Assembly: GCA_023382265.1 (NCBI GenBank) | Contig: JAMCPX010000054.1 | Coordinates: 1-64,000 of the forward strand | Length of the DNA: 64,000 nt | Origin: Deltaproteobacteria bacterium | GTDB lineage: Bacteria; JAMCPX01 | Direction of reading: 5' to 3' | Shown here: positions 17,569 through 48,761 of the stretch, in pieces | Layout of the letters: every line of letters starts with the position of its first letter | How positions within the stretch are numbered: position 1 is the stretch's first letter | Position numbers and translations under genes: made by a program | The notes under the pieces: generated by a model | What the model was told of the DNA's origin: nothing | Database searches by the model: none | The model's input: the letters and a program-made list of their open reading frames with translations, nothing else

Positions 17569-20500
17569 TTAGTATATCACCTGCTCAATCGTGTTGAGCA
17601 CTGTATCGCTTGACATGGTCGTCGGTGAGCCGTTGGACGTGCCGCCGATTAAGTAGAAGTAAGGTCCGAGTAATATACCCGCACCAAGGTATCGATAGGT
17701 CAATGTCTTGCCTCCATCATTATTTGGATATCCTGTATGTAATGTGTAAGGCGTTGTTCCAAATTCAAAATCTTCAATATTATGTGTCAATGGGTATCCG
17801 GCAAAGAAATAAAAGAAGTTATTTGTATCCACCAATGTTATCTGGCCACTTATGGTATAAGAAGCGTTTGATAAACCATTAGAAGTCTTTAAGTATTGAA
17901 ACGGCTCAAGTCTTCCATCGCCCTGAATACGGGAGACCTCTGTTGTGTTTATAACAGCTCCGTTGTACCCGGTTACTGCATATATATAACCGGATGTATC
18001 TGTTATTGCCAGAGGCAGATTTGTTTTATCTGCTGATAATGCACTGAGCTGGCACCTGGCTGTTTGTAGCGATGCTGTTGCAAAGATATTTCCAATGCCT
18101 CCACCCATAGGCAATGCACCCGGGGTTGGGCTGACAGAACCATTATCAGAGAATGCAGTCGTTGGAGAGACAATGTTGCCTATATACTCTAAGCCATGCC
18201 CGCTGTCCCTGTATATGTTATAAGACGATGCATCCGGCACAGATGCCCATGTAAACTGTATGCCGCCTGTTACAGATGTCTGGAATGTTCCGGCATAGGC
18301 AAGCTCGCCGTCAGGCACGATTGCTGTAACAGCGTATGTGTATGTAGAAGCAGCAAGCCTGCCCGTTGTAGCGCTCGCTTCTGTTATAGGAGCCGCGGAC
18401 AATTGTATTGAGTCAACTGTTGAAAGTCCTGTCGAACCATTTGCTGTCCCTCCAACGGCATAACCGTACACGGTGCCTGTCTGCGTATGACCTACTGCAG
18501 CGCCAAGATAGCCCCGTGCAGAAGATAATGAAGCAGAAACAAGTCCGAATGGACCAAGGCTGCCATACGGTAATGGTGGTATATATCCATCGGAAGGCGT
18601 TGTCATCGTAACAGGCAGTGAACTACCGTCATCCGTAATGGTTGTGGTTAAGGTAACAGGCACAAGCAATACCTCATTTCCCTGTCTGATATCAGGGGAT
18701 GGGCTTCTATAGACCTTATAATATTCTGCTTCAGGAACGGGATTAAATTTAAGTGTTACGTAAGATGTGTTTGATGTGGTTGTTACTGAGGCAAAGTTTA
18801 ATGCAGGTGATTCTCCCCTGTAGTTTACGGCAGAAACCCTGTAATAGTATGTGCCTGCCGATAATGTACCTCCCGATGAGGAAGGTGTTGCAACAAGGTT
18901 TGTTGGATCCTGGATGGTTGTTGGGAAACCTGACGTTGTATCTGTTATGCTGATAGGCTGAGATGTCCCATTATCAACAAAGCTTCTGCCGCTGATATTC
19001 CATGCAATAAGCACAGGTCTGAATGTGCCTGGGGTATTCCTGTAAACATTGTATCCAGTAGCAGTGATAAAGCTATTTGTTACAGGGCTCCACACGCTCA
19101 CTGGCTGCCATGATACCTGGATTGAGCCCGTCTGCGTGGTTGTTGTAAAAACAACCGGTGAAGGCAGGCTTTCTCCTATGTACGTTGTGCCTGTCGGCAG
19201 GTTTGCAGAAACTTCATATACCCATGTGCCAGCGGGCAGTGTACCCGTCGTAAATGCGGAAAGACCTTCGAACGATACAACAGGAGTACTGTCGGTTGTA
19301 AGAATCTTTGCACGCTCTATTACTGAGGTGTATCCTGAAGAAGGGGTAAGCCCGCCGAGTACATACACATAGCCATTATACTGGAATGCCGCTGCACCCG
19401 TGGTTTTATAGATAAGAGGAGATGTAAGGTTGAATGGATTGAGATTACCAAACCTGTCCGGCTGTGCGTATTCAACACTGTCAAGTGTATGCCTGCCTAT
19501 GCCATCATCGCCGCCGATCGCATAAATAAACCGATCACCGATATTGTCATGCCCTGTAACCGATGTAAGCCCTTGCCTGCCAATAATAAGTTGACTTGTT
19601 GATGCATTAGTATTTCCAACATTTTGCGCAGGGTTCGTGACGATAAAGCTTGAATAGTCATAATAGGTATTATCCGATGTGTTAGTAACTCGTATTACGT
19701 AAACACCTGTTGCAAGCACTGCAGTTGTGCATGTAATAATAGTCGATGATTGAGCGCTTATTGAACATACATTAATTGCACCTGTAGAATCGATAGTCTC
19801 TGCAGTTGCATCTGATGCAAAGTAATTGCCTGTTATGGTTATAGATGTTAAAGCATTGGATGAGCCCGATGCAGGCGATATGCTCGTTATAACAGGCGGC
19901 GGGTTGGCAGAAACGTAGAACCCGGACGGGTATACAGCCTGCTGCCCATCTGGATTTTGTACTGTTATATCATACCACCCGACAGCCATACCATTCGGTA
20001 CGACAGCCTGGATCTGTGAGGATGATACATAAGCGACATAGGTTAGTTTTACACCAGCAGTTGAACCGGCGGGCGCAAATATCACGGTAGCAGGAAAACT
20101 GAAGTTCATGCCGCTTATTGTGATATTTGTATCGGCGTTTGTCCATCCGAACTTTGGCTCTATTGATGAAATGACCGGTGAAATGCACGCGTGGATCTGT
20201 GTTATTGAGATTGATGCACTTGTCTGCTGTGAATCGGGGTTGGTGACAATAATGGTATATGTGCCTGCACTTAAACCTGTACCTGTTGTAGCTGTTATGG
20301 ATGTTGAGGATACTGAATTTACGGTTGTAGTTATTTTATTGCCCGATGCTGATACTACTGTAACATTGGGTATACCGAAAAAGCTTGTTCCCCCGATGTT
20401 TACAACAACCGTGCCTGCCATGCTGCAGATCGATGCGCTGCTTATTGTTGGTGGGGGATAGCTCGAAACGATGTAAGCGTTCTTAAGCGTGCCGCTCTTG

Positions 20501-20853
20501 CCAGTGGGGTTGACGACCGTAACGCTGTATGTAACCCATGTACCTGCAGCGACAGAGATCCCGGACGGCACAGTTGCATTTATGACGGTCTGTGAAACCT
20601 TTGTCATAGAGAGATGTGTAATTGGCGATGTGCTCAGATATACCTGCGGCAGTTTTGTTGTAAGGTTGCCTGAAAGAATATTGAATGGTACTGCCTGAAA
20701 GCCGTTACCGGTGATTGTTACCGGTATGGTGCTTTGATTATACCCACCCCCCGGTGTTATGGATAACGGTTGCGGTGCTGGACCAGTTGTCGTCTTTGAA
20801 CAGCCGGCAAATATAGCAAATGCTGATAATGTTATGTATATAAGCTTCTTCAT
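17569..20853 (-). CDS. Large surface lipoprotein with IPT/TIG, kelch-like and Fn3-like modules
   Basis: The 1094-residue protein has a lipoprotein signal with lipobox FAGC (Cys near 18). At least four IPT/TIG immunoglobulin-like repeats follow (about 28-410; for example SSIEPKFGWTNADTNITISG and TSISPASGSSNALTSITITG). The rest alternates kelch-like beta-propeller blades (YAIGGDDGIGRHTLDSVEYA, YVLGGLTPSSGY, YAVGGTANGSTG, YLIGGTSNGSP) with Fn3-like segments (AGTYYYRVSAVNYRGESP, AGTWVYEVSANLPTG). Such architecture suggests an outer-surface adhesion or carbohydrate-binding protein. It is 9 bp downstream of a small barrel gene, so the two form an operon. Confidence 0.75.
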   Translation of the reverse strand: MKKLIYITLSAFAIFAGCSKTTTGPAPQPLSITPGGGYNQSTIPVTITGNGFQAVPFNILSGNLTTKLPQVYLSTSPITHLSMTKVSQTVINATVPSGISVAAGTWVTYSVTVVNPTGKSGTLKNAYIVSSYPPPTISSASICSMAGTVVVNIGGTSFFGIPNVTVVSASGNKITTTVNSVSSTSITATTGTGLSAGTYTIIVTNPDSQQTSASISITQIHACISPVISSIEPKFGWTNADTNITISGMNFSFPATVIFAPAGSTAGVKLTYVAYVSSSQIQAVVPNGMAVGWYDITVQNPDGQQAVYPSGFYVSANPPPVITSISPASGSSNALTSITITGNYFASDATAETIDSTGAINVCSISAQSSTIITCTTAVLATGVYVIRVTNTSDNTYYDYSSFIVTNPAQNVGNTNASTSQLIIGRQGLTSVTGHDNIGDRFIYAIGGDDGIGRHTLDSVEYAQPDRFGNLNPFNLTSPLIYKTTGAAAFQYNGYVYVLGGLTPSSGYTSVIERAKILTTDSTPVVSFEGLSAFTTGTLPAGTWVYEVSANLPTGTTYIGESLPSPVVFTTTTQTGSIQVSWQPVSVWSPVTNSFITATGYNVYRNTPGTFRPVLIAWNISGRSFVDNGTSQPISITDTTSGFPTTIQDPTNLVATPSSSGGTLSAGTYYYRVSAVNYRGESPALNFASVTTTSNTSYVTLKFNPVPEAEYYKVYRSPSPDIRQGNEVLLVPVTLTTTITDDGSSLPVTMTTPSDGYIPPLPYGSLGPFGLVSASLSSARGYLGAAVGHTQTGTVYGYAVGGTANGSTGLSTVDSIQLSAAPITEASATTGRLAASTYTYAVTAIVPDGELAYAGTFQTSVTGGIQFTWASVPDASSYNIYRDSGHGLEYIGNIVSPTTAFSDNGSVSPTPGALPMGGGIGNIFATASLQTARCQLSALSADKTNLPLAITDTSGYIYAVTGYNGAVINTTEVSRIQGDGRLEPFQYLKTSNGLSNASYTISGQITLVDTNNFFYFFAGYPLTHNIEDFEFGTTPYTLHTGYPNNDGGKTLTYRYLGAGILLGPYFYLIGGTSNGSPTTMSSDTVLNTIEQVIY

Positions 20854-20862
20854 ATTGTCCTC

Positions 20863-21510
20863 CTAAAAAAAGATATTGTAGCCGATCAGAAATAAAGTCC
20901 CTCCGATGTTTGCAGAGCCTGTTGTAAGGTAATTCACGGATGAGGATATAAAGTTAAATTCTGCAAAAATGGCCCCGGGCCCAAGTTTATTTATCCTGAT
21001 GCCGGGGTATACGGAAAAACCAAACGAACTACCCTGTTCACTTACGGATGAAAATTTTGATATAGATGTGTTTACAGAAGAGCTAACAATACCCAGTCCT
21101 ATACCCCCGTAAATATCTATCAGATCATTAATCGTGTAATCGTAAGTGAGTTGTATAAGTATGGGTAATGCATAACCTTTTAAATGGTAACTAATCGTGC
21201 CTGTCTGGATTGAACTGGCAGAGCCTGATTTATCTATGGGATAGTAGTCTATGCCAAGACCAATTGATAATGAAGAGCTGGAGTGTCTGTAGACCCTTTC
21301 CCCGGCCCCAATACCAAAGGAGAATCCGCTTTGAAAAGATGAAAAAGGCACAATCATGTCACCGATGCCGGCATTAAAGTATGTGTTTTTGTTTTCCGTG
21401 TAAGTTTCTCTATAATCGCTCTGCCTCATCGAGTATTCACGCGCATACAGATTGCTTGATGTAAAAACGCATGCCAGTAAAAAAAACATTACTACCCATG
21501 TTTTTATCAT
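20863..21510 (-). CDS. Outer-membrane beta-barrel protein
   Basis: The 215-residue protein has an N-terminal signal peptide (about 1-23, FFLLACVFTSSNLYA). It then has alternating amphipathic strands rich in Gly, Ser and Tyr and ends in IGYNIFF, with a terminal Phe as recognised by the BAM complex. It resembles small OmpW/OmpA-type eight-strand barrels, though no family can be named. It shares a 15-nt ribosome-site leader with the lipoprotein gene at 26916, and is followed closely by the IPT lipoprotein, which it may anchor or help export. Confidence 0.65.
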   Translation of the reverse strand: MIKTWVVMFFLLACVFTSSNLYAREYSMRQSDYRETYTENKNTYFNAGIGDMIVPFSSFQSGFSFGIGAGERVYRHSSSSLSIGLGIDYYPIDKSGSASSIQTGTISYHLKGYALPILIQLTYDYTINDLIDIYGGIGLGIVSSSVNTSISKFSSVSEQGSSFGFSVYPGIRINKLGPGAIFAEFNFISSSVNYLTTGSANIGGTLFLIGYNIFF

Positions 21511-21700
21511 TACGCACCTCCATTTTTAATATAAGACAATGAAATGGTTTAGATGTAACATGAGCACACTCAAATACCGGCTGTAGTTTTACTTCAATCG
21601 TATTTTTCTTATGCATGCAAAAAACGGAAAGATTAACAGATAGCCTGCACCGACGGCAATGATCCACATGCCCATAATGACCCTCTTTAAAACTGGCAGC

Positions 21701-22736
21701 TCAGATGTTGTTTTGAAAAATACGGGCCGCCCATTTTCTAAAACCCGATGTCATTAATGTTGCAATCCCGGGTATTGCCTCGGTTAGTCTTGAGGAAATT
21801 TGAATCGGTACACGTTTCATAACCACGCTATTTATATAGTAAATGTATGCATCCGATATCCCTGTATGTTCCGGCTTATATATTATCTGGGCATTTTCAA
21901 AGGCGGTATACATTATGGGCTCAAACAAGCCTTTTGCCTGTGTCTTATCAATGTAGGTGATGATATTCCCGTACTCAAGACTGTAAGCAGTTATCAGGTA
22001 TGAAAGATCGATAAAATCCCTAAGTCTAAATGAATAATTGTGATGTATTGCCATATGATAAAGCGTATAAATAAAGGATATCATGGGCTCAAACACATAA
22101 AAATTTTCGTTATCCCATTTTATCTTCATAGTGCATTCAAACGGGTTTAGAGGAGTTAAGAAAATAAATCTATCATCGAATAACCATGTATGGATCTCGA
22201 GCGATAGAATATCATCGGCGGATTGATACGGAGTGATGTGTGATTTTACCTCCTCAAACCATTTTCCACTCAGAGTTTTAAACAACGCATACATACTCTG
22301 TTCTTTCATCAATTCTTTCATTTTCAGGATATGTTCTTTTTTAATAAGTATGTCCACGTCAGCCATGGGTCTTATACCGACCTCGTTATATATAGAAACG
22401 GCGAATGCAGAGCCTTTTAACAGGATAATATCTATACCATACTTTTCAGCGGCTTGTCTCAGCAGTTTTTTTTTTAGCGCTTCAACAATAGTATGTTTCT
22501 GGCTGTATTCTGCATATAACTATTTTTTAAAGATGCCGGTATCTCAGGACTAAGAGTTGTGATATTTTTTTAATATTATGATATAAAAGGGGAGATAAAA
22601 ATTACATGCTTGCAAGTTTTACGAGTTTTTTAAAATCCATACGTGTCAGTCTATTTTTGATAATGGTTATCCGTGAGTTTGACTTTGCCGGAGCACATAT
22701 ATCTATCAGTAATGTTCTGGAAGTGTTGAAAAGCAT
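21701..22736 (-). pseudogene. Broken NTP_transf_5-type nucleotidyltransferase
   Basis: The intact 3-prime part encodes RPMADVDILI and a long helical C-region. The upstream DNA encodes the rest of the family in other frames. ATG at 22736 opens MLFNTSRTLL, leading through FKKLVKLASM to an in-frame TAA (22604-22602). SPLLYHNIKK continues in that frame. A shift near the A7 run leads to PEIPASLKNSYMQNTARNIL. A second shift near 22490-22525 leads to EALKKKLLRQ and ILLKGSAFAV, joining the intact part. So one stop and two frameshifts interrupt a gene of about 345 codons. The Lys-Gly-Ser and Asp-x-Asp catalytic elements persist. Family members often accompany PqqD and lasso-B2-like proteins in RiPP-type clusters. 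The start lies 1 bp after the B2 remnant stop. Confidence 0.8.
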
Positions 22737-22737
22737 A

Positions 22738-23153
22738 TTATAGATAAGAAAATGTTATATGATAATAGTTGGATATATCCGGCTGATCATCAAATACAAC
22801 ACCGTCTATACAAACCCAGCTATGTCCAATTATGGATGTTTTGTCTATACGGTCTTTTCGTATACCAGTATACAGTACGGCATTGTATCCCGATTCATTT
22901 AAGAATTTATAAAGTATTATTGTACGGTTCCAGCGATGCTGTGTTTTAAATATGCTTTTTATCTTTAACCATACGTGTGCATACCTTTTTATAAGTATCT
23001 TATTGAAAGATTTTTTTTGTCCTTTGAGAGAGTATCAAGAAATTCTTTCAGCCCATACTCCTTTTCAAGAAAAGGAATATAAAATATGTAAAAACCCATT
23101 CTCAAGAATAAAGATAAGCTGCCGGTTATTTTATCGGCGGTATTGTTATCCAT
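22738..23153 (-). pseudogene. Frameshifted lasso-peptide B2-like (transglutaminase-core) protein
   Basis: ATG at 23153, overlapping the preceding gene by 28 nt, opens MDNNTADKITGS and FLEKEYGLKEFLDTLSKDKK. It runs into a stop at 22991-22989. A shift of one base at the A8 run (23018-23011) restores the frame giving RYAHVWLKIK, RTIILYKFLNESGYNAVLYT and the His motif GHSWVCIDG, ending at 22738. Total length (about 138 codons) fits Transglut_core3 proteins, the lasso leader peptidases. Where CLxRSLALyrfL is expected the sequence reads RWNRTIILYKFL, so the catalytic Cys is replaced by Arg (codon CGC at 22935-22933, one transition from TGC). The His (22824-22822) remains. The gene is probably dead. 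Confidence 0.75.
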
Positions 23154-23536
23154 GCGGGCTGATCATTAAGGTATGCATTGTCTGTTAATCCATGATTGTT
23201 TGAGCCGTTTATGGACATTGAGTATAATTGAAATCTTCCGGATCTGTTCGATGAGAATACAATAGTATAACCGCATGCAGTAGGATGCAGATCAAAATAC
23301 TGGCTTAGGACGCAATCGGTTGAAGGATCGGTAAGCCTTTTCACGCCTGACCCATCCGGCTTCATACTATATATACTGTAATCCCCATCCCTTGTTTATA
23401 CAAAGATTATCAAAAATTGTTTTAGATTCTTAAGCTTATCAGGCTGATGATAAACTTCGCGTGAGCATGAACCTATAAATAGGGCAGCTGCCATAAAAAA
23501 GCTTCTATATAGCATTGTTGGTAGTTTTGGAATCAT
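23126..23536 (-). pseudogene. PD40/TolB-like lipoprotein gene with an in-frame stop
   Basis: ATG at 23536 overlaps the TGA of the pqqD-like gene (ATGA). It opens a clear lipoprotein signal, MIPKLPTMLYRSFFMAAALF, with lipobox IGSC. The frame meets TAA at codon 47 (23398-23396), then continues in the same frame to 23126. Across the stop the sequence reads IIFV-stop-TRDGDYSIYSMKPDGSG, exactly the PD40 beta-propeller motif FVS-TRDG, so the TAA most simply replaces a Ser TCA codon. A second PD40-like unit (IVFSSNRSGRFQLYSM) follows. At about 136 codons it is short for the family. It may be inactivated or already a relic. Confidence 0.75.
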
Positions 23537-23817
23537 GCCTTTTCAATTAATTTGCTGTTAAGTAATTTACTTATCAATGTGTTAACGCTGTCAAGAGCCT
23601 CTGCCTTATCCAAATCGTAAATAGAAATAAGTTGTTCAATATTTTTTTCAAGTGTCAGCGATACCTCAATACCTTTATATATAAGAAGTCCTGTCTCATT
23701 TAATGAATAATACCGTTCGCTCTTCAAATCAAGAAGCACAGCCTCGTTATCGTCAAGTTCTGTAATTATTATGTCCTTCGGGATGGTGTAGTTCATTTTG
23801 ATGGATAAGGAGGGCAA
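23533..23817 (-). CDS. PqqD-family protein (RiPP recognition element)
   Basis: The protein of up to 94 residues shows the PqqD/RRE pattern: VLLDLKSERYYSLNETGLLIYKGI followed by a helical C-half ending LISKLLNSKLIEKA. Such proteins bind leader peptides and present them to RiPP-modifying enzymes. The start is uncertain. TTG at 23817 sits 3 nt after GGAGG; ATG at 23796 (MNYTIPK) gives 87 residues but lacks a nearby ribosome site. It lies 15 bp after the 1027-residue lipoprotein stop and overlaps the next gene by ATGA. It is the only cassette gene without an obvious lesion. Confidence 0.8.
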   Translation of the reverse strand: MPSLSIKMNYTIPKDIIITELDDNEAVLLDLKSERYYSLNETGLLIYKGIEVSLTLEKNIEQLISIYDLDKAEALDSVNTLISKLLNSKLIEKA

Positions 23818-23829
23818 TGCCCTCCTTAT
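23805..23829 (-). promoter_or_regulatory. Hairpin sequestering the ribosome site ahead of the PqqD-like gene
   Basis: An 11-bp perfect inverted repeat (ATAAGGAGGGC, loop AAT, GCCCTCCTTAT on the plus strand) spans the gap between the giant lipoprotein stop and the PqqD start. On the minus-strand RNA its 5-prime arm contains AAGGAGG, the only good ribosome site. It has no U-tract, so it could dampen translation or protect the upstream mRNA end rather than terminate. Confidence 0.5.
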
Positions 23830-23832
23830 TAT

Positions 23833-26800
23833 TTATAATGAACTCGTTAAAGAATTAATGAGCAATGATACAAGCCCGACAAACTGGTTGACCTTGCCGT
23901 TGGTAATGTCCATTGTCGAATAACTTGTTGTACCGCAGCTCAGTGTTCCCTGATCTGCTATACCAAGCCATGAAGAGTACTGTGTACCCCAATGGAAATG
24001 TCCCATAGTTAATACGCCGTCAAAGCTTGGATCAGGGAAGAACACGTACGTGTCATCCGGTATGAACACCAATAGATTTATCCCCATACCTGAGAACATA
24101 ACAGGCGTGGGAGGATCCACTGCCCTTCCGTCTGGCCAGAAATGGTATCTTGAAACGAATGGAGTATAACTCCCGGAAAATGGAGCAACAGTAGTTCCGG
24201 AAACGGTAGACAACAGTGTCATAAAATTACCGTCATATCCATCGTATATACCATTCTTCTCACCGCACACCGACCATGATTGTTGTGGATAATCAGGGAA
24301 TGGATATGGAGGATTTGTACACGTTATATCATCTCCATAAGGATCCGGATTATTTGTAGGACTATATCCGAGTTCAAGATTATCAGCCACCCTGCCTGTC
24401 CCCGTATCACTAAATGCGGTTATAGGTAAACCCTGCCAATCTTTACCTACAAACGGAAATGTCTGCTCTTCATCATACTGGACTATAATATCTCCTGCAT
24501 TGTGATATTGTCCGTCACCATATATGTCGTCAATCGGATCACCCGATTCCCATTGTACATATTTACCGGTTGAATCAGAGTACCATTCGCCTCCATATCC
24601 TGCAGTAAAAGGATTACCTACGCAATTATCGCATGTGCCGTTTACAAGGCTTGCTGTTGCTGTCCAGTAACCAGCCCCATTATTATATGCGGGGTCCGGC
24701 ACATGGACAAATCCATCTGCAAAAGGCTCCGGCGGTACATATATGCCTGTTCCAGCCTTATCGACAAAAGGCGTTGCTTGTGGATAGTATAACGGTGCAA
24801 GTGTTTTCAGATTACCGGGTGGATAATTAAAGAACGCACCGAGATCTATAGAAGGTAATACACCGGGCAATAAAGTATAAAGCGTCCCGGCAGAGGCATA
24901 GTTTGTTAGAACCGGTAACAGCCCTCCAAGCATTGATGTAATTGCAGGACTACCTGAATAGGAAATGCCATTTACCATTCCTAATAACCTTTTGAGCAAT
25001 ATGCCTATTACCGGATAGAGATCCAGAGGGTGCTGGCCATTAGTATCAAGAATAGACCCCTGAAGGGCATAGCTTGTAGAAGAAATATCGGTTAAATATA
25101 TAATCTTGGAAAGCGGAGGTATGGTTACGTTTGATACTCCGATCGGTAAAGATATACCCTGTATAAATAAAAGGTTGTCAATAAAAGCCGCTGCCCGTTT
25201 TCTATTCATCCCTGAAATGAGTATGGATACAGGGGATAAAGTGCTACTCAAACTTGGTACAATGGCAGGGAGTATTTGAAGAGCAACTACAAGCAATTGA
25301 CTTAATAAAGGCGAACCCCACGGCTCTCCCGGATCATAATGCCCATTGCCGTCCGTACCCATAGGATTCTTAACTGGATCATAAAGATCACCTTTTGGAT
25401 CAAGTCCTCTGTAACAGCCATTTGGTCCTGTTTCCAATTGATCGGGTGTATTATCAGTGCCCCAATCATGGAATCGTTTGCCAGGCTCATATACTCCGCT
25501 TCCCTCTGCTTCTGTAAATGGTATTCCCGATACCATGATAGGAACCTGATGATGTATAAGCCATGGAAAGTTTGGCGGAAATGCGTCATTCATGTCCGGA
25601 TCGGGATTACAATCAGCATTGTAACCTGTTTCCTGAACATTAAATAAACCATCTATACCGGTATCATCAGGACCCGGCGAGAATACTGTACTCATATTTA
25701 CCGCGGGGTTCCTTTGTTCCCATCCAGGCATAAATACGCCGTTCGGCAGTGTCGTAGAAACGTCTTCGACATAAGTGGTACCGGAAATCTCTCGTATCCC
25801 ATCTCCGTAGCCGCAGGGTGTCCCATTTGAGAGATCCTGGGATGTGCATGGATGATTATCGCCTGCTGGATAAAGATTGAACTTAGAGGAATCAGTAATG
25901 TAATCAGGGCATTTATTAAAACTTGCCTCAGAAATAGAAGACGCAGGTATGGACATGGTTATATTGAGCCCATTAAAAGACAGCACAACTTTTTTTGGCT
26001 GACACTGCGGGAAATAAGACGGGCATCCGCCCCAGTCATCATAAAACATCAGCACATGATTAGAATTGTCACCCTTTCTGTTCATTATGAATGAAGCGCT
26101 GTCACCGAACGACTTGAATGCGTCTCCAAGTAATGATTGGGCATCTGTTAACTCCTGAGCACCGTTGGATGAAATCGTCCCGAAGGCTGGATCAAGTAAC
26201 GGGCTTTGAGGTGCCGGACAACCTGATTTTACAGGGATTACAAGATTTATAAGTGCATTTGCCACACCATTATATGCAAACAATAGCTTAACTCCGCCTT
26301 GAATCGTTTCAAGGAGTCCTATAAAAGAGTCAACCTCTCCGAGGTCATAAGTACCCGACATATCAAGATATAACCTTGGATCTGTTAAGCTTGACGTATT
26401 GATTCCAAGGGTACTCATGTTATTTAAGATAACAAGGTCGGCACTATTTATTGTAAATGAAAAGCCCGTGAAAGGTAAAACCGCTTTTAAATTAGAAACA
26501 ATTGGAGAAATAATATTATCAAGAATAGGACCAAGTAAATTTTGATACGGCGTGATATCAATGGGTTGACATGGATTTGATGATGATCCTCCTGTTAATG
26601 ACCCAAGCATGTTAGAGCTTAATAGACTTGAAATGGTCGAGATCGCATTCCATATACCTATCATTCCAAGTCCGAAGTTTGCATGCGATTCAACATAAGC
26701 ATAATTACTATCCCCTGGATTTATATTATTCAAGGCATCTGTGTACAGTGACTGTGCCTCTGATATTTGTGAACTGTTATTAAGTCCCCCGTTCATGATA

Positions 26801-26916
26801 ATTTGATCCGCATTATGTGTGTTCTGGTATGGATTAACCTTTGAAGTTGCACACCGGGTTGTTAGAAAAAATAATGACAAAATAATTATAGAAAAGTGAA
26901 TCACCCTTTGCCTCAT
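23833..26916 (-). CDS. Giant lipoprotein-like secreted protein of unknown function
   Basis: The 1027-residue protein has an N-terminal hydrophobic signal followed by a Cys (LTTRC, an imperfect lipobox). The first 100 residues include a helical TPR-like stretch (SEAQSLYTDALNNINPGDSN). The middle and C-terminal parts are rich in Asp, Gly, Asn, Pro and Tyr, with repeated short acidic turns (DGNGHYDPGEPWG, GDGQYHNAGD, NGIYDGYDGNF) that look like calcium-binding loops. Cys occurs in scattered pairs. I do not recognise the family. It heads the operon of the PqqD/B2/nucleotidyltransferase cassette and has a good promoter and a GGAGG ribosome site. Confidence 0.6.
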   Translation of the reverse strand: MRQRVIHFSIIILSLFFLTTRCATSKVNPYQNTHNADQIIMNGGLNNSSQISEAQSLYTDALNNINPGDSNYAYVESHANFGLGMIGIWNAISTISSLLSSNMLGSLTGGSSSNPCQPIDITPYQNLLGPILDNIISPIVSNLKAVLPFTGFSFTINSADLVILNNMSTLGINTSSLTDPRLYLDMSGTYDLGEVDSFIGLLETIQGGVKLLFAYNGVANALINLVIPVKSGCPAPQSPLLDPAFGTISSNGAQELTDAQSLLGDAFKSFGDSASFIMNRKGDNSNHVLMFYDDWGGCPSYFPQCQPKKVVLSFNGLNITMSIPASSISEASFNKCPDYITDSSKFNLYPAGDNHPCTSQDLSNGTPCGYGDGIREISGTTYVEDVSTTLPNGVFMPGWEQRNPAVNMSTVFSPGPDDTGIDGLFNVQETGYNADCNPDPDMNDAFPPNFPWLIHHQVPIMVSGIPFTEAEGSGVYEPGKRFHDWGTDNTPDQLETGPNGCYRGLDPKGDLYDPVKNPMGTDGNGHYDPGEPWGSPLLSQLLVVALQILPAIVPSLSSTLSPVSILISGMNRKRAAAFIDNLLFIQGISLPIGVSNVTIPPLSKIIYLTDISSTSYALQGSILDTNGQHPLDLYPVIGILLKRLLGMVNGISYSGSPAITSMLGGLLPVLTNYASAGTLYTLLPGVLPSIDLGAFFNYPPGNLKTLAPLYYPQATPFVDKAGTGIYVPPEPFADGFVHVPDPAYNNGAGYWTATASLVNGTCDNCVGNPFTAGYGGEWYSDSTGKYVQWESGDPIDDIYGDGQYHNAGDIIVQYDEEQTFPFVGKDWQGLPITAFSDTGTGRVADNLELGYSPTNNPDPYGDDITCTNPPYPFPDYPQQSWSVCGEKNGIYDGYDGNFMTLLSTVSGTTVAPFSGSYTPFVSRYHFWPDGRAVDPPTPVMFSGMGINLLVFIPDDTYVFFPDPSFDGVLTMGHFHWGTQYSSWLGIADQGTLSCGTTSYSTMDITNGKVNQFVGLVSLLINSLTSSL

Positions 26917-26944: not shown

Positions 26945-26973
26945 ATTTAATCTTAGTTTTGTATAATAGTCAA
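26945..26973 (-). promoter_or_regulatory. Sigma70-type promoter of the giant-lipoprotein/PqqD operon
   Basis: On the minus strand TTGACT (26973-26968), 17-bp spacer, TTAAAT (26950-26945) lies just upstream of the gene starting at 26916. It is followed by the ribosome site GGAGGTG. Spacing and match are both good. Confidence 0.6.
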
Positions 26974-27113: not shown

Positions 27114-27983
27114 CTAATATTTATACAGCATGGCTGTTATTATTTTATAAACAAGCCTTGCTGCTAAAAAATCGGTATTGATGGATAATGGCGCCGGTGA
27201 AAGTTCAACAACATCGCATCCAACAAGGTTATGATGTTTTATAACCATTTTTATCAGATCGATTACATCATACCATCCCAACCCACCTGGTTCGGGTGTA
27301 CCGACAGCAGGCGCAACGGACGGATCGAATCCGTCGAGATCTATAGTCAAATACACATTATCATGAAGCGATTCTGTTGCGTGTTCTTTCCATTGTGCAT
27401 CTTTTCTTATGTTATGCATATAGAAGGTATGGATCCTGTCTTTTTTTATGGTCTCATACTCTTCTTTACTCTGGCTTCTTATACCTACCTGAACTATAGT
27501 TGCCATATCTTTTATTCTTGCCATTACGGATCCATGGCTGTAAATACTGCCCTGGTAACTTTCTCTTAGATCCGAATGTGCGTCAACGTGCAAAACACTT
27601 AAGGACTTAAACTTTTCTTTATACGCTTTTACGATTGGATATGTTATAGAGTGTTCGCCGCCTAACGAGATCAAAAACTTTTCCTTTATCGGGAGTTGTT
27701 TTACAGTTGAGTAAATTCTGTTGATGGCATCATCGGGTATAAGGTTCTGGAAATTAATATGTTCAAGTGTATTTATACCCGTAAGATATGTTTCAACGCC
27801 TGCCTCTTCGTCAAATAGCTCTACATAATGTGAAGCCCTTATTATAGCCTCAGGCCCGTTTTTTGTCCCATCGATATAGGATGTAGTTTGCTCGTAGGGG
27901 ATGGGCAGAATTAGAAAATTCGCCCTTTTAAAGGGAACATTATATCCAATAAAGCTATTTTTGTCTGCAATGGGTATCATCAT
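27114..27983 (-). CDS. speB: Agmatinase (arginase-family ureohydrolase)
   Basis: The 289-residue protein has the binuclear manganese motifs of the family: GGEHS near 107, DAHSD near 133 and DLDGFDPS near 215. The sequence [10 protein letters not shown] follows and is typical of agmatinases. It hydrolyses agmatine to putrescine and urea. Its start overlaps the end of the arginine decarboxylase gene by 4 bp, giving a compact two-gene polyamine operon (arginine to agmatine to putrescine). Arginase activity cannot be excluded by sequence but the partner gene favours agmatinase. Confidence 0.92.
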
Positions 27984-28525
27984 GGGAGAAGCACTGCGGA
28001 TGCAAGTACCGTTGTCCAGTATCCGTCTTTATCAACCGTAGCTGATTGGGTTATGTTACGGGTTGTTACAATATGACCTTTGATTGTCCATATCTCTTTT
28101 TGTTCATCATAGCTTTTGTTTGAATCAAACTCTACTCCCATTGTTGTTGCAAGCATGTAGGCAGCAAGGTCCTCTGCATAATCTCCTGCTACCTTTTCCG
28201 TCTGGCCAAAACCATGATGTTCTGATAAATAGCCGTGAATTGTTTCATCCTTCGGATTAGCAAGTCCGATTGATGCTGCAACAAGCCTGTGCGGTTCGTT
28301 AGAAGAGTTTTCCGATAATACACAAAACACGATTTGACCTTGCTGTAAATGCTGCAAGCCCTGTTCAATGCTTATTATTTTGCATCGTGGCGGGATAATG
28401 CTGCTCACCTTGACAAGGTTATATTCTGCTATTTTTGCATCTCTCAATGCCATCTCAAAACTTGTTAACTTTTCTGTATGCCTGCCAATGCCCTTTGTTA
28501 AAAATAGTTTAGAAGGTACAAACAT
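27980..28525 (-). CDS. pdaD: Pyruvoyl-dependent arginine decarboxylase PdaD
   Basis: The 181-residue proenzyme contains KVSSIIPP, where self-cleavage between Ser41 and Ser42 generates the pyruvoyl cofactor. Later motifs include [20 protein letters not shown] and [14 protein letters not shown], as in archaeal and deltaproteobacterial PdaD. It decarboxylates arginine to agmatine, the substrate of the downstream overlapping agmatinase. This archaeal-type enzyme, instead of PLP-dependent SpeA, is common in anaerobic bacteria. The gene is divergent from the TetR-efflux operon. Confidence 0.92.
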
Positions 28526-38751: not shown

Positions 38752-39104
38752 TTTGAAGCATACAGGAACAAGAGATCGAAACCGGACAATTCCTTTTCAT
38801 ATTAGCAACAATAAATGATTACTTATCCATTTGCTTTGAATTCTTAACCGCACTAAGATTCCCTTTGCTATTTCAATGTGGGATAATCGGTTTTTACCAC
38901 TCCGTTTAATGGCATCTAACCCGGCTTTAAAATTACAACATTTTAAGGTCTTTAATAATCCATTCTGCTGCAAGCCAAGTAAAGGTCTGCTTACTTCAAG
39001 TGCATTTATTTTAGAGGAACCCTCTCCATAGCTTTTAGAGAGGGTCCATTTTTCTGAGTAACTTTATGATAACAAAATTACCAGGTTAACAATAAACGAA
39101 TTTT
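38752..39104. other. Gene-free interval between helicase and RRM genes
   Basis: Apart from the terminator at 39019-39053 I see no supported gene. On the minus strand one frame stays open for roughly 80 codons from about 39060 to 38800 (including LEVSRPLLGLQQNGLLKTLK) but has no good start or ribosome site and no family I recognise. It may be a relic of a lost gene. Confidence 0.4.
39019..39053 (+). terminator. Rho-independent terminator
   Basis: ACCCTCTC (39019-39026) pairs with GAGAGGGT (39038-39045), loop of 11 nt, followed by CCATTTTT. The polarity fits plus-strand transcription, so it probably ends the TPM-LemA-helicase transcript, although it lies about 270 nt past the helicase stop. 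Confidence 0.7.
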
Positions 39105-39407
39105 TTATCTGTATCCACCTCTGCTGCTCCCATACCCGCCTTTTCTTGGACCATCTCTTTTCTCCATTGGTTTTGCCTCATTTACCTTGATGCTTCTTCC
39201 CTTGAAGTCAGTGCCGTTCACCTGTTCAATGGCTTTCTTAGCCTCTTCATCGTTTGGCATTTCAACGAATCCAAAACCTTTTGAGCGATCCGAGTACTTA
39301 TCCTTGATTATGGTAACACTCTGAACCGCTCCGATTTTCTCAAACAACCCTTTTACATCTTCTTCTGTGGTGTCAAACGTCAAATTGCCTACATACAGTT
39401 TTAGCAT
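39105..39407 (-). CDS. RRM-domain RNA-binding protein
   Basis: The 100-residue protein is a single RNA-recognition motif with RNP2 LYVGNL (3-8) and RNP1 KGFGFVEM (about 43-50), followed by a short Arg/Gly-rich tail (GGYGSSRGGYR). Bacterial proteins of this shape, known in cyanobacteria and deltaproteobacteria, bind RNA and are often cold-induced. It is monocistronic with a strong AAAGGAG ribosome site and a promoter candidate at 39524-39552. Confidence 0.92.
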   Translation of the reverse strand: MLKLYVGNLTFDTTEEDVKGLFEKIGAVQSVTIIKDKYSDRSKGFGFVEMPNDEEAKKAIEQVNGTDFKGRSIKVNEAKPMEKRDGPRKGGYGSSRGGYR

Positions 39408-39523
39408 TTTTTTCTCCTTTGTTTTAAGTATGACTTATTTTTATATAAAAGTAAAAGAAAACAGAGTCACGATTAAAAACCAGAACCCGCTGTTATTTTA
39501 ATGGCAGTAACATAATATTTATT

Positions 39524-39552
39524 TAATTACATCAAATAAAATTCTTTGTCAA
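39524..39552 (-). promoter_or_regulatory. Promoter candidate for the RRM protein gene
   Basis: On the minus strand TTGACA (39552-39547), 17-bp spacer, TAATTA (39529-39524) gives a leader of roughly 110 nt, which is fairly long and could have regulatory structure. In the same divergent region CCGAGAAT (39568-39575) and ATTCTCGG (39642-39649) form a widely spaced inverted repeat of unknown role. Confidence 0.5.
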
Positions 39553-39752
39553 GTATGTAAAGGCCGACCGAGAATTCAGATTTTTCAAAATCAACATCAA
39601 TAAAATCAAATAGTTAACAAGTCAAAATAGGTAAAAATGTTATTCTCGGCCAGCCTGTGTAGCTGTAAACACAATTTATGACTATTCTTTTTAAGATAAT
39701 CAACTTGACAGCTATTGTATTTGGTATTTTGTATACAATAAAGGAGCTAAAT

Positions 39753-47892: not shown

Positions 47893-48118
47893 GGTTATAA
47901 TATGAGTATTGTTATGCTATGCCTTGACTTCTTGTCATATGGTCATATTTACAATTCCATATATTTTTTGTTATTTTACCATTTTTAATATGGATTGTGA
48001 AGCTTTTTCAGAATTCAGATATGCAGCCTCCGGTAATGGCGGGCAGGGAGTATCGGTTTTATATGTTTTTTTAAAATAACATGTGGCAGCAAGCCCGGGA
48101 ACTTAAAAAATACAACTG

Positions 48119-48148
48119 TTGACTTCATTTCTTAAAATGATTTATATT
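48119..48148 (+). promoter_or_regulatory. Promoter candidate ahead of the DUF4845-like gene
   Basis: TTGACT (48119-48124) is followed after about 18 bp by TATATT (48143-48148). The predicted transcript would begin at or just before the ATG at 48158, giving a leaderless or nearly leaderless mRNA. This is also why the in-frame TTG at 48119 is not used as a start. Confidence 0.5.
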
Positions 48149-48157
48149 ATAGCGGTT

Positions 48158-48529
48158 ATGAAAACAACATTCAATGATGCAGAGAGCGGAAATTCAAAAT
48201 TTACCATATTGGTTTCTTTGCTTATTATTGGATTTATAATTTATATAATTATAAAGATTGCGCCTGTTTATCTCGTAAACTTTGAGCTGGAAAATATGTT
48301 TCAGGTGAATGCAGATAGGATTCAGACTACACCCATTAATATGATAAAACAGGACATTGCAGAACAATTGGCATCAATGCATGCACCGATCACATTGAAT
48401 GATGTCAGTATATTGCAGAATGCTACAAATGACATAACCATATCGGCAAGTTATTCGGCGGAAGTTAAATTACTTGACTACTATAAAATAAAGTTTCATT
48501 TTAATCCAAAAGCAGAAACAGGCGGATAA
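48158..48529 (+). CDS. DUF4845-like small membrane-anchored protein
   Basis: The 123-residue protein has one N-terminal membrane helix (about 14-36, FTILVSLLIIGFIIYIIIKI), then KIAPVYLVNFELENMF and a small C-terminal domain ending YSAEVKLLDYYKIKFHF. This matches the DUF4845 layout (single helix plus periplasmic domain). Function is unknown. It lies upstream of the pyr leader on the same strand, with structured RNA between. Confidence 0.6.
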   Translation: MKTTFNDAESGNSKFTILVSLLIIGFIIYIIIKIAPVYLVNFELENMFQVNADRIQTTPINMIKQDIAEQLASMHAPITLNDVSILQNATNDITISASYSAEVKLLDYYKIKFHFNPKAETGG

Positions 48530-48538
48530 GCAGTAAAC

Positions 48539-48637
48539 CCAGTTAGAAAGGATGTGGCTTTAAACCGCGCCCTTTTTATAAGGACTTTAAAATTTATCGT
48601 ATTATATCCGCCATAAATGGCGGAGCTTTCTAACTGG
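48539..48637 (+). other. Long-range inverted repeat in the pyr leader region
   Basis: CCAGTTAGAAAG (48539-48550) is perfectly complementary to CTTTCTAACTGG (48626-48637). Between them lie TCCGCC-ATAAAT-GGCGGA (48607-48624, a perfect 6-bp hairpin) and a GGCTTTAAACCGCGCCCTTTTT stretch that could act as a terminator for the gene before. The whole can fold as a multi-branched RNA. Confidence 0.6.
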
Positions 48638-48652
48638 ATGAAAAATATCCTT

Positions 48653-48677
48653 TAAGTTGATCCTGAGAGGTTAACAA
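48653..48677 (+). promoter_or_regulatory. PyrR-binding RNA loop
   Basis: The RNA GATCCTGAGAGGTT (48659-48672) matches the PyrR-binding consensus ARUCCNGNGAGGYU at every constrained position but the first. Flanking GTTGAtCC and GGTTAAC form the expected bulged stem. It lies just upstream of the AAGGAG ribosome site of a leader ORF, so PyrR-UMP binding could block translation of that ORF. Confidence 0.75.
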
Positions 48678-48686
48678 GGAGCAAAT

Positions 48687-48752
48687 ATGATTGTAAAAAA
48701 AGATGAATTAAAGATAGCCTTCCTGAGCTCGGGAAGGCTATCTTTTTATTAA
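48687..48752 (+). CDS. Leader peptide ORF (21 codons) in the pyr attenuator
   Basis: AAGGAG (48676-48681) sits 5 nt before ATG 48687. The frame encodes MIVKKDELKIAF, LSSGRLSFY and ends at TAA 48750-48752, nine bases before the pyrR ATG. It runs through the whole terminator hairpin, so a translating ribosome would prevent terminator folding. The product itself is probably irrelevant. Confidence 0.6.
   Translation: MIVKKDELKIAFLSSGRLSFY
48712..48750 (+). terminator. Intrinsic terminator/attenuator upstream of pyrR
   Basis: AGATAGCCTTCC (48712-48723) and GGAAGGCTATCT (48732-48743) form a perfect 12-bp stem with an 8-nt loop. It is followed by TTTTATT. It lies 12 bp before the pyrR start and can only act as an attenuator of the pyr operon. 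Confidence 0.85.
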
Positions 48753-48761
48753 GAGGGGATT

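Follow-up and report, generated by a model that had tools for sequence, protein, structure and literature searches.

A minus-strand operon of five genes was found in the 64,000-nt stretch analysed here (the window: contig C54, JAMCPX010000054.1, of Deltaproteobacteria bacterium genome G000, whose assembly totals 2.63 Mb at 95.8% completeness). It encodes a 1027-residue secreted protein (gene 1), a PqqD-like protein, a PD40 lipoprotein, a lasso-B2-like Transglut_core3 protease (TgC3) and an NTP_transf_5 enzyme (NTP5). With a probability of about two in three, we read the operon as a lasso-type leader-processing module that acts on a non-lasso ribosomally synthesized and post-translationally modified peptide (RiPP) encoded in trans, a peptide that would work with giant surface proteins; the module is dead in the window lineage. 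Comparisons were made within a family of nine genomes, G000 and eight relatives (G001 to G008). The features of the operon, and the precursor gene found elsewhere in G000, are as follows.

26945..26973, minus strand: putative promoter of the sigma-70 type for gene 1, TTGACT-17-TTAAAT; G001, G002 and G007 conserve both its position and its sequence
23833..26916, minus strand: gene 1, intact, 1027-aa secreted protein, probably lipid-anchored, without a Pfam or NCBIfam family
23804..23830, minus strand: intrinsic-terminator-like hairpin, 11-bp stem and 3-nt loop, between gene 1 and pqqD
23533..23796, minus strand: pqqD-like gene (PF05402), 87 aa, open, a discrete RiPP recognition element (RRE); start set by alignment
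23126..23535, minus strand: pseudogene of a PD40 (TolB-like propeller) lipoprotein, with an in-frame TAA and about 190 aa lost
22738..23127, minus strand: TgC3 pseudogene, lasso-B2-like protease, with a frame change near 23010 and the catalytic Cys replaced by Arg
21601..22733, minus strand: NTP5 pseudogene, membrane-anchored nucleotidyltransferase, with two in-frame TAA codons and three frame changes
G000:C21:37031-37222, outside the window: probable precursor gene of the window genome, open, with a start and a ribosome site

The three enzyme families named in a preliminary description of the window were all matched by profile. PqqD scored 43.2 bits against PF05402, and six-frame searches gave 26.8 bits for Transglut_core3 (PF13471) and 87.3 bits for NTP_transf_5 (PF14907; cut-off 31.2), the latter reaching 119-137 bits in the relatives. 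The gene order and strand given in that description also stood, while two boundaries were moved by alignment with the relatives: pqqD starts at ATG 23796, not TTG 23817, so that the gap behind gene 1 is 36 nt, not 15 bp, and contains the hairpin, and the NTP5 remnant continues past 21701 to approximately 21601. PqqD was matched once in the window genome and is therefore the only PqqD there. A nucleotidyltransferase motif is still recognisable in the NTP5 remnant. Weak NTP_transf_5 matches on contigs C53 and C3 of G000 are separate short nucleotidyltransferases, not second copies of NTP5; these near-identical genes (MDFKLVLEKLLTAFDEHNIRYALTGGFAMGLWGGSR; G000:C53:20331-20543 and G000:C3:13163-13372, loci L109 and L110) have similar surroundings on the two contigs, occur also on G001:C161, and look like a mobile or duplicated cassette.

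The last three genes of the operon had been described as carrying five lesions. These are real in the assembly, but the count is higher. The PD40 gene has an in-frame TAA at 23398-23396 and, by alignment with the relatives, has lost about 190 propeller residues in frame between similar repeats. In the TgC3 gene the frame changes between 23016 and 23004, and the catalytic Cys has become Arg at 22935-22933. The NTP5 gene is interrupted by TAA at 22604-22602 and 22476-22474 and changes frame at 22560/22530, at 22474/22468 and at about 21720. Open reading frames (ORFs) of at least 150 aa account for 90% of the window. The longest interval free of them is 22367-23832, and two more such intervals, of 870-930 bp, lie at 38752-39677 and 47893-48761. 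The flanking and upstream genes are open, as had been stated. Judged from sequence, the PD40, TgC3 and NTP5 genes of the window are pseudogenes and the module is dead in this lineage, while the precursor persists. As the window comes from a metagenome assembly, the lesions might instead be assembly or sequencing errors in an operon that functions in the window organism, but we consider this very improbable. Within 1.9 kb, among open neighbours, lie two stops and three frame changes as well as the loss of a catalytic Cys and a deletion of 190 aa between similar repeats, and the module can be lost, as G003 shows (see below). Real decay fits better than sequencing error because a repeat-to-repeat deletion and an active-site missense change are found among the frame changes. 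Ratios of nonsynonymous to synonymous substitution (dN/dS) for the window remnants were mostly saturated and were not used.

An intact form of the operon had been supposed to exist in relatives, and comparison of the locus revealed intact orthologues headed by the same secreted protein, in support of a decaying RiPP-like operon that is an envelope-associated system in its intact form. All five genes are present in G002, G004 and G007, and G006 lacks only the 5' part of gene 1. The operon is divided between two contigs in G001 and G005, and the first three genes lie on a fragment in G008. G003 retains gene 1 alone; profile searches of this genome found no PqqD, B2-like gene, NTP_transf_5 or precursor. 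Among the relatives dN/dS was 0.04-0.22 for all five genes, indicating that the module is maintained there by purifying selection. The window genome and G003 are thus natural knock-outs in which the module is dispensable and the head protein is kept. Our reading of metagenome sample codes places the relatives in acid-mine-drainage sediments, which the sample titles do not state.

Orthologues of gene 1 occur in all eight other family genomes and clearly nowhere else, save for distant homologues in G051 and G056. The product had been called a lipoprotein. It is secreted, but its lipobox is atypical, with T-T-R-C in the window and L-T-Q-C in the relatives against a consensus of [LVI][ASTVI][GAS]C; the residue at -1, Arg or Gln, is off consensus, and lipid anchoring is therefore probable, not certain. 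AlphaFold models of the 1027-aa protein, made with five sequences, were uninformative (mean predicted local distance difference test score, 32). The hairpin between gene 1 and pqqD is found in all seven genomes compared and is 100% paired, with compensatory changes in 6 of its 11 pairs compared with 0 or 1 in slid controls. A T-rich tail follows it in the relatives and is weak in the window. We infer that the hairpin is a conserved terminator separating gene 1 from the enzyme genes. In the relatives the promoter reads TTGACT-17-TATTAA or TATTGA, and a GGAGGTG site also precedes gene 1. With these signals in front and the hairpin behind, the gene 1 product is probably made in excess over the enzymes.

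No short precursor ORF had been seen in the window, and this holds locally: an ORF scan for a YxxPxL-type leader and a ribosome site found no such small ORF in the window or in any family operon. The same scan did find a precursor beside comparable PqqD/B2 clusters of other lineages, at L143, L133, L162, L132, L150, L158, L161, L121 and L112. A profile of the leaders at these loci (A10) matched small ORFs on other contigs in five of the nine family genomes, the window genome included, so that a precursor is present there after all, on another contig. The encoded peptides are 62-65 aa long and share the consensus K-K-x-F-I-E-P-E-L-x-x-Y-P-x-L-x-x-[VI]-T-x-L ... G-x-[ST]-G ... T-F-F-K-T-F-[KR], the end of which is missing in G006. 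When a profile of this family (A11) was run against 193 genomes at E<1e-6, it matched only its own five genomes and G049 (E=1e-8 to 5e-7), which belongs to another family and carries four precursor copies, none beside its PqqD-HprK-like-radical SAM-TgC3 cluster. This precursor family, the probable substrate of the module, is undescribed; in several bacterial lineages its genes usually neighbour those of giant secreted proteins.

Lasso leaders carry YxxPxL at -17 to -12 and Thr at -2 (PMC10368454). With the motif of the candidate precursors (F-I-E-P-E-L in the family) placed at these positions, Thr falls at -2 in 17 of 17 precursors examined. The predicted cores are then 12-16 residues long in the family and 13 in G049 and G194. 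They start with Leu or Phe, which differs from the Gly, Ala, Ser or Cys expected at position 1 of a lasso core, and have no Asp or Glu at positions 7-9. The lasso cyclase is an asparagine-synthetase homologue. The ATP-grasp cyclase whose absence had been pointed out was therefore the wrong partner to look for, and an asparagine-synthetase-type cyclase is likewise absent from the operon. Since the cores lack a ring-forming Asp/Glu and the operon lacks a cyclase, the products should not be lasso peptides. A true lasso system with its cyclase elsewhere in the genome would have the B1-like RRE, the B2-like protease and the leader geometry, all lasso hallmarks, in its favour, as well as an AsnB-type gene two genes downstream of NTP5 in G001. 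Given the cores, the lack of a cyclase in every family operon and the failure of the NCBIfam lasso precursor models to match, such a system appears distinctly improbable.

The association of the precursors with TgC3 was examined in 386 genomes using a combined precursor profile (A12, E<=0.01). It matched 20 genomes, of which 18 were among the 35 with a TgC3 match. When the eight genomes used for training were left out, a precursor was found in 10 of 27 genomes with TgC3 and 2 of 351 without (p=3.5e-11, Fisher test). Most of the precursors also lie beside genes for giant secreted proteins, of 640-1071 aa. In G049 a precursor is located 47-74 bp upstream of a 1048-1071-aa lipoprotein gene at each of three loci, and in G001 and G002 it is upstream of secreted proteins of 971 aa and 907 aa, respectively. 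In G047 and G241 the order is PqqD-lipoprotein-precursor, with lipoproteins of 640 aa and 905 aa, and in G194 the precursor precedes a 1042-aa lipoprotein. G194 and G241 were found by the profile but were not part of its training, and so provide a fair test of the pairing. Among 185 background ORFs, only three were strict lipoproteins of at least 640 aa; the strict signature is carried by some of the precursor-adjacent giants, the rest having atypical lipoboxes. Hidden Markov model comparison showed no homology between gene 1 and these giants and no clear homology between giants of different lineages. We found no description in the literature of such precursors paired with giant proteins. At L235, L236 and L237 (G106, G372 and G245), weakly matching lasso-type precursors lie directly beside 980-1389-aa secreted proteins that have Ig-like domains and an RMVLIR ending; this may be the same pairing in a further lineage.

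The module might instead modify gene 1 itself, or the PD40 lipoprotein, before export, the small peptide in trans being unrelated. Gene 1 stands at the precursor position, with a conserved terminator after it as often found behind precursor genes, no family operon contains a small precursor, and PD40 precedes TgC3 at L142 and L143 too. However, gene 1 is kept in G003, which has lost the module, and in the window, where the module is dying, no YxxPxL-type leader was recognised in it by eye, its homologues in G051 and G056 have no module alongside, and G047 and G241 encode a separate small precursor beside the big protein. Because small precursors are found beside comparable genes, gene 1 as the precursor was reduced to a rival explanation, one that we regard as unlikely.

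If the module processes a peptide encoded in trans, as we favour, the terminator behind a well-expressed secreted protein would throttle the enzyme genes, and PqqD would bind the F-x-E-P-x-L leader of the 62-65-aa precursor. The B2-like protease would then cut after the residue that follows Thr(-2), releasing a Ser/Thr/Phe peptide of 12-16 residues, such as the predicted L-T-V-P-G-V-S-G-A-T-F-F-K-T-F-K of one relative. NTP5 would probably place a nucleotidyl or sugar group on Ser/Thr, for which PsmN, presumably a member of the same Pfam family, offers a precedent. For pseudomycoidin, PsmN is reported to be required when a hexose is added to a phosphorylated Ser, although its exact reaction is unsettled (PMC9266682). 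The mature peptide may act at the cell surface with the giant secreted proteins.

Several points weigh against this proposal. The family precursor is unlinked to the enzymes, so that their pairing rests on co-occurrence and the leader match; until conservation within the family was noticed, the A10 matches there had modest E-values (5e-4 to 0.08), and the related genomes entering the Fisher test are not independent. The whole module is present in G004 and G007, yet a precursor was found in neither, nor in G008; these assemblies are 80-87% complete. The precursor of G005 and G006 comes just after a lipoprotein of another kind, TIG/NHL (519 aa in G005). That of the window genome has no giant gene directly next to it, the nearest being a divergent gene for a 946-aa PD40-containing protein. 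The lasso cyclase was looked for in the family operons and not elsewhere in the genomes, G001 has its AsnB-type gene, and all of the evidence comes from metagenome assemblies.

A wider proposal, offered tentatively and with some doubt, is that of a new RiPP class, in which lasso-type RRE and B2 enzymes excise short Ser/Thr/Phe-rich peptides, not lassos, from scattered precursors, each precursor being dedicated to a giant secreted protein and its mature peptide displayed with or joined to that protein at the surface, in at least three unrelated lineages, with the window as a loss in progress. Where PqqD and B2-like proteins occur with no lasso cyclase, they usually go unexplained, and distant precursors escape cluster-based mining. 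The leader profile connects such orphan modules to trans precursors beside giant surface proteins, and suggests a testable role for a RiPP at the cell surface and not as an antibiotic that diffuses away. The lineages concerned are known almost exclusively through metagenomes.

Directly after the dead operon, the window contains an outer-membrane barrel gene (20863-21510) and the gene for a 1094-aa TIG/Kelch lipoprotein (17569-20853); in four relatives an ElyC-like gene follows NTP5 at the place of the barrel gene. Upstream (27114-28525), an arginase-family gene overlaps a pyruvoyl-dependent arginine decarboxylase gene, probably as a polyamine pair, and the conserved pair precedes the operon in G001, G002 and G007 as well.

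A contig scan with a narrower TgC3 alignment gave nine loci. The place of NTP_transf_5 is taken in other lineages by a radical SAM enzyme and an HprK-like protein. Operons of six to seven genes at L143 (3022-10267, Deltaproteobacteria RBG_13_61_14) and L163+L142 (AlinenSediments bin-1115, order inferred across two contigs) have the order PqqD - giant lipoprotein - (precursor) - HprK-like - radical SAM - PD40 lipoprotein - B2-like protease. Their PD40 lipoprotein bears MopE or Big repeats and lies immediately before TgC3, an arrangement shared with the family operon. PqqD-TgC3-radical SAM-precursor-kinase-like clusters at L158 and L161 (G250 and G376) encode near-identical 51-aa precursors with two Cys, and have an apparent ABC transporter ATPase gene in front.

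Like RRE-dependent RiPP systems in general, the module has an RRE together with modifying enzymes, and its probable precursor, here in trans, carries a conserved leader. Among known systems, it shares with lasso peptide biosynthesis (A, B1/RRE, B2 and C, with K and N tailoring, as for pseudomycoidin and paeninodin) a discrete PqqD-type RRE, a Transglut_core3 B2 protease, an NTP_transf_5-like tailoring gene (PMC9266682) and a leader motif at -17 to -12 with Thr at -2 (PMC10368454), the first motif residue being Phe in the family. TgC3 of the relatives reaches the NCBIfam model lasso_biosyn_B2 (NF033537) with 36.5 bits (cut-off 33); its catalytic residues, Cys77 and His114, are invariant, the Cys in 14 homologues. 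A fold search with a TgC3 model gave nothing better than weak matches to transglutaminases, NAT and Cys proteases (best E 0.045), and sequence searches of the PDB gave no match. PqqD falls below every NCBIfam equivalog cut-off, with lasso PqqD models as its best matches. The family differs from lasso clusters in its operon without a cyclase, its cores with Leu/Phe at position 1 and no ring-forming Asp/Glu, its precursor in trans and the two secreted proteins of its operon. The HPr-rel-A system (TIGR04352 kinase, TIGR04353 PqqD) and the SynChlorMet cassette likewise pair a discrete PqqD with a kinase, nucleotidyltransferase or radical SAM enzyme, and relatives in other lineages carry PqqD-HprK-like-radical SAM-TgC3. 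The family operon, however, has neither a kinase, HprK-related kinase A included, nor a radical SAM enzyme, and its PqqD scores 15-25 bits, far below the cut-offs (PqqD_rel_X, 15-18 bits against 35). Finally, the PD40 protein resembles TolB-like propeller lipoproteins in its PD40 repeats and lipobox, but scores 117.7 bits against an equivalog cut-off of 343 and sits in a peptide-maturation operon.

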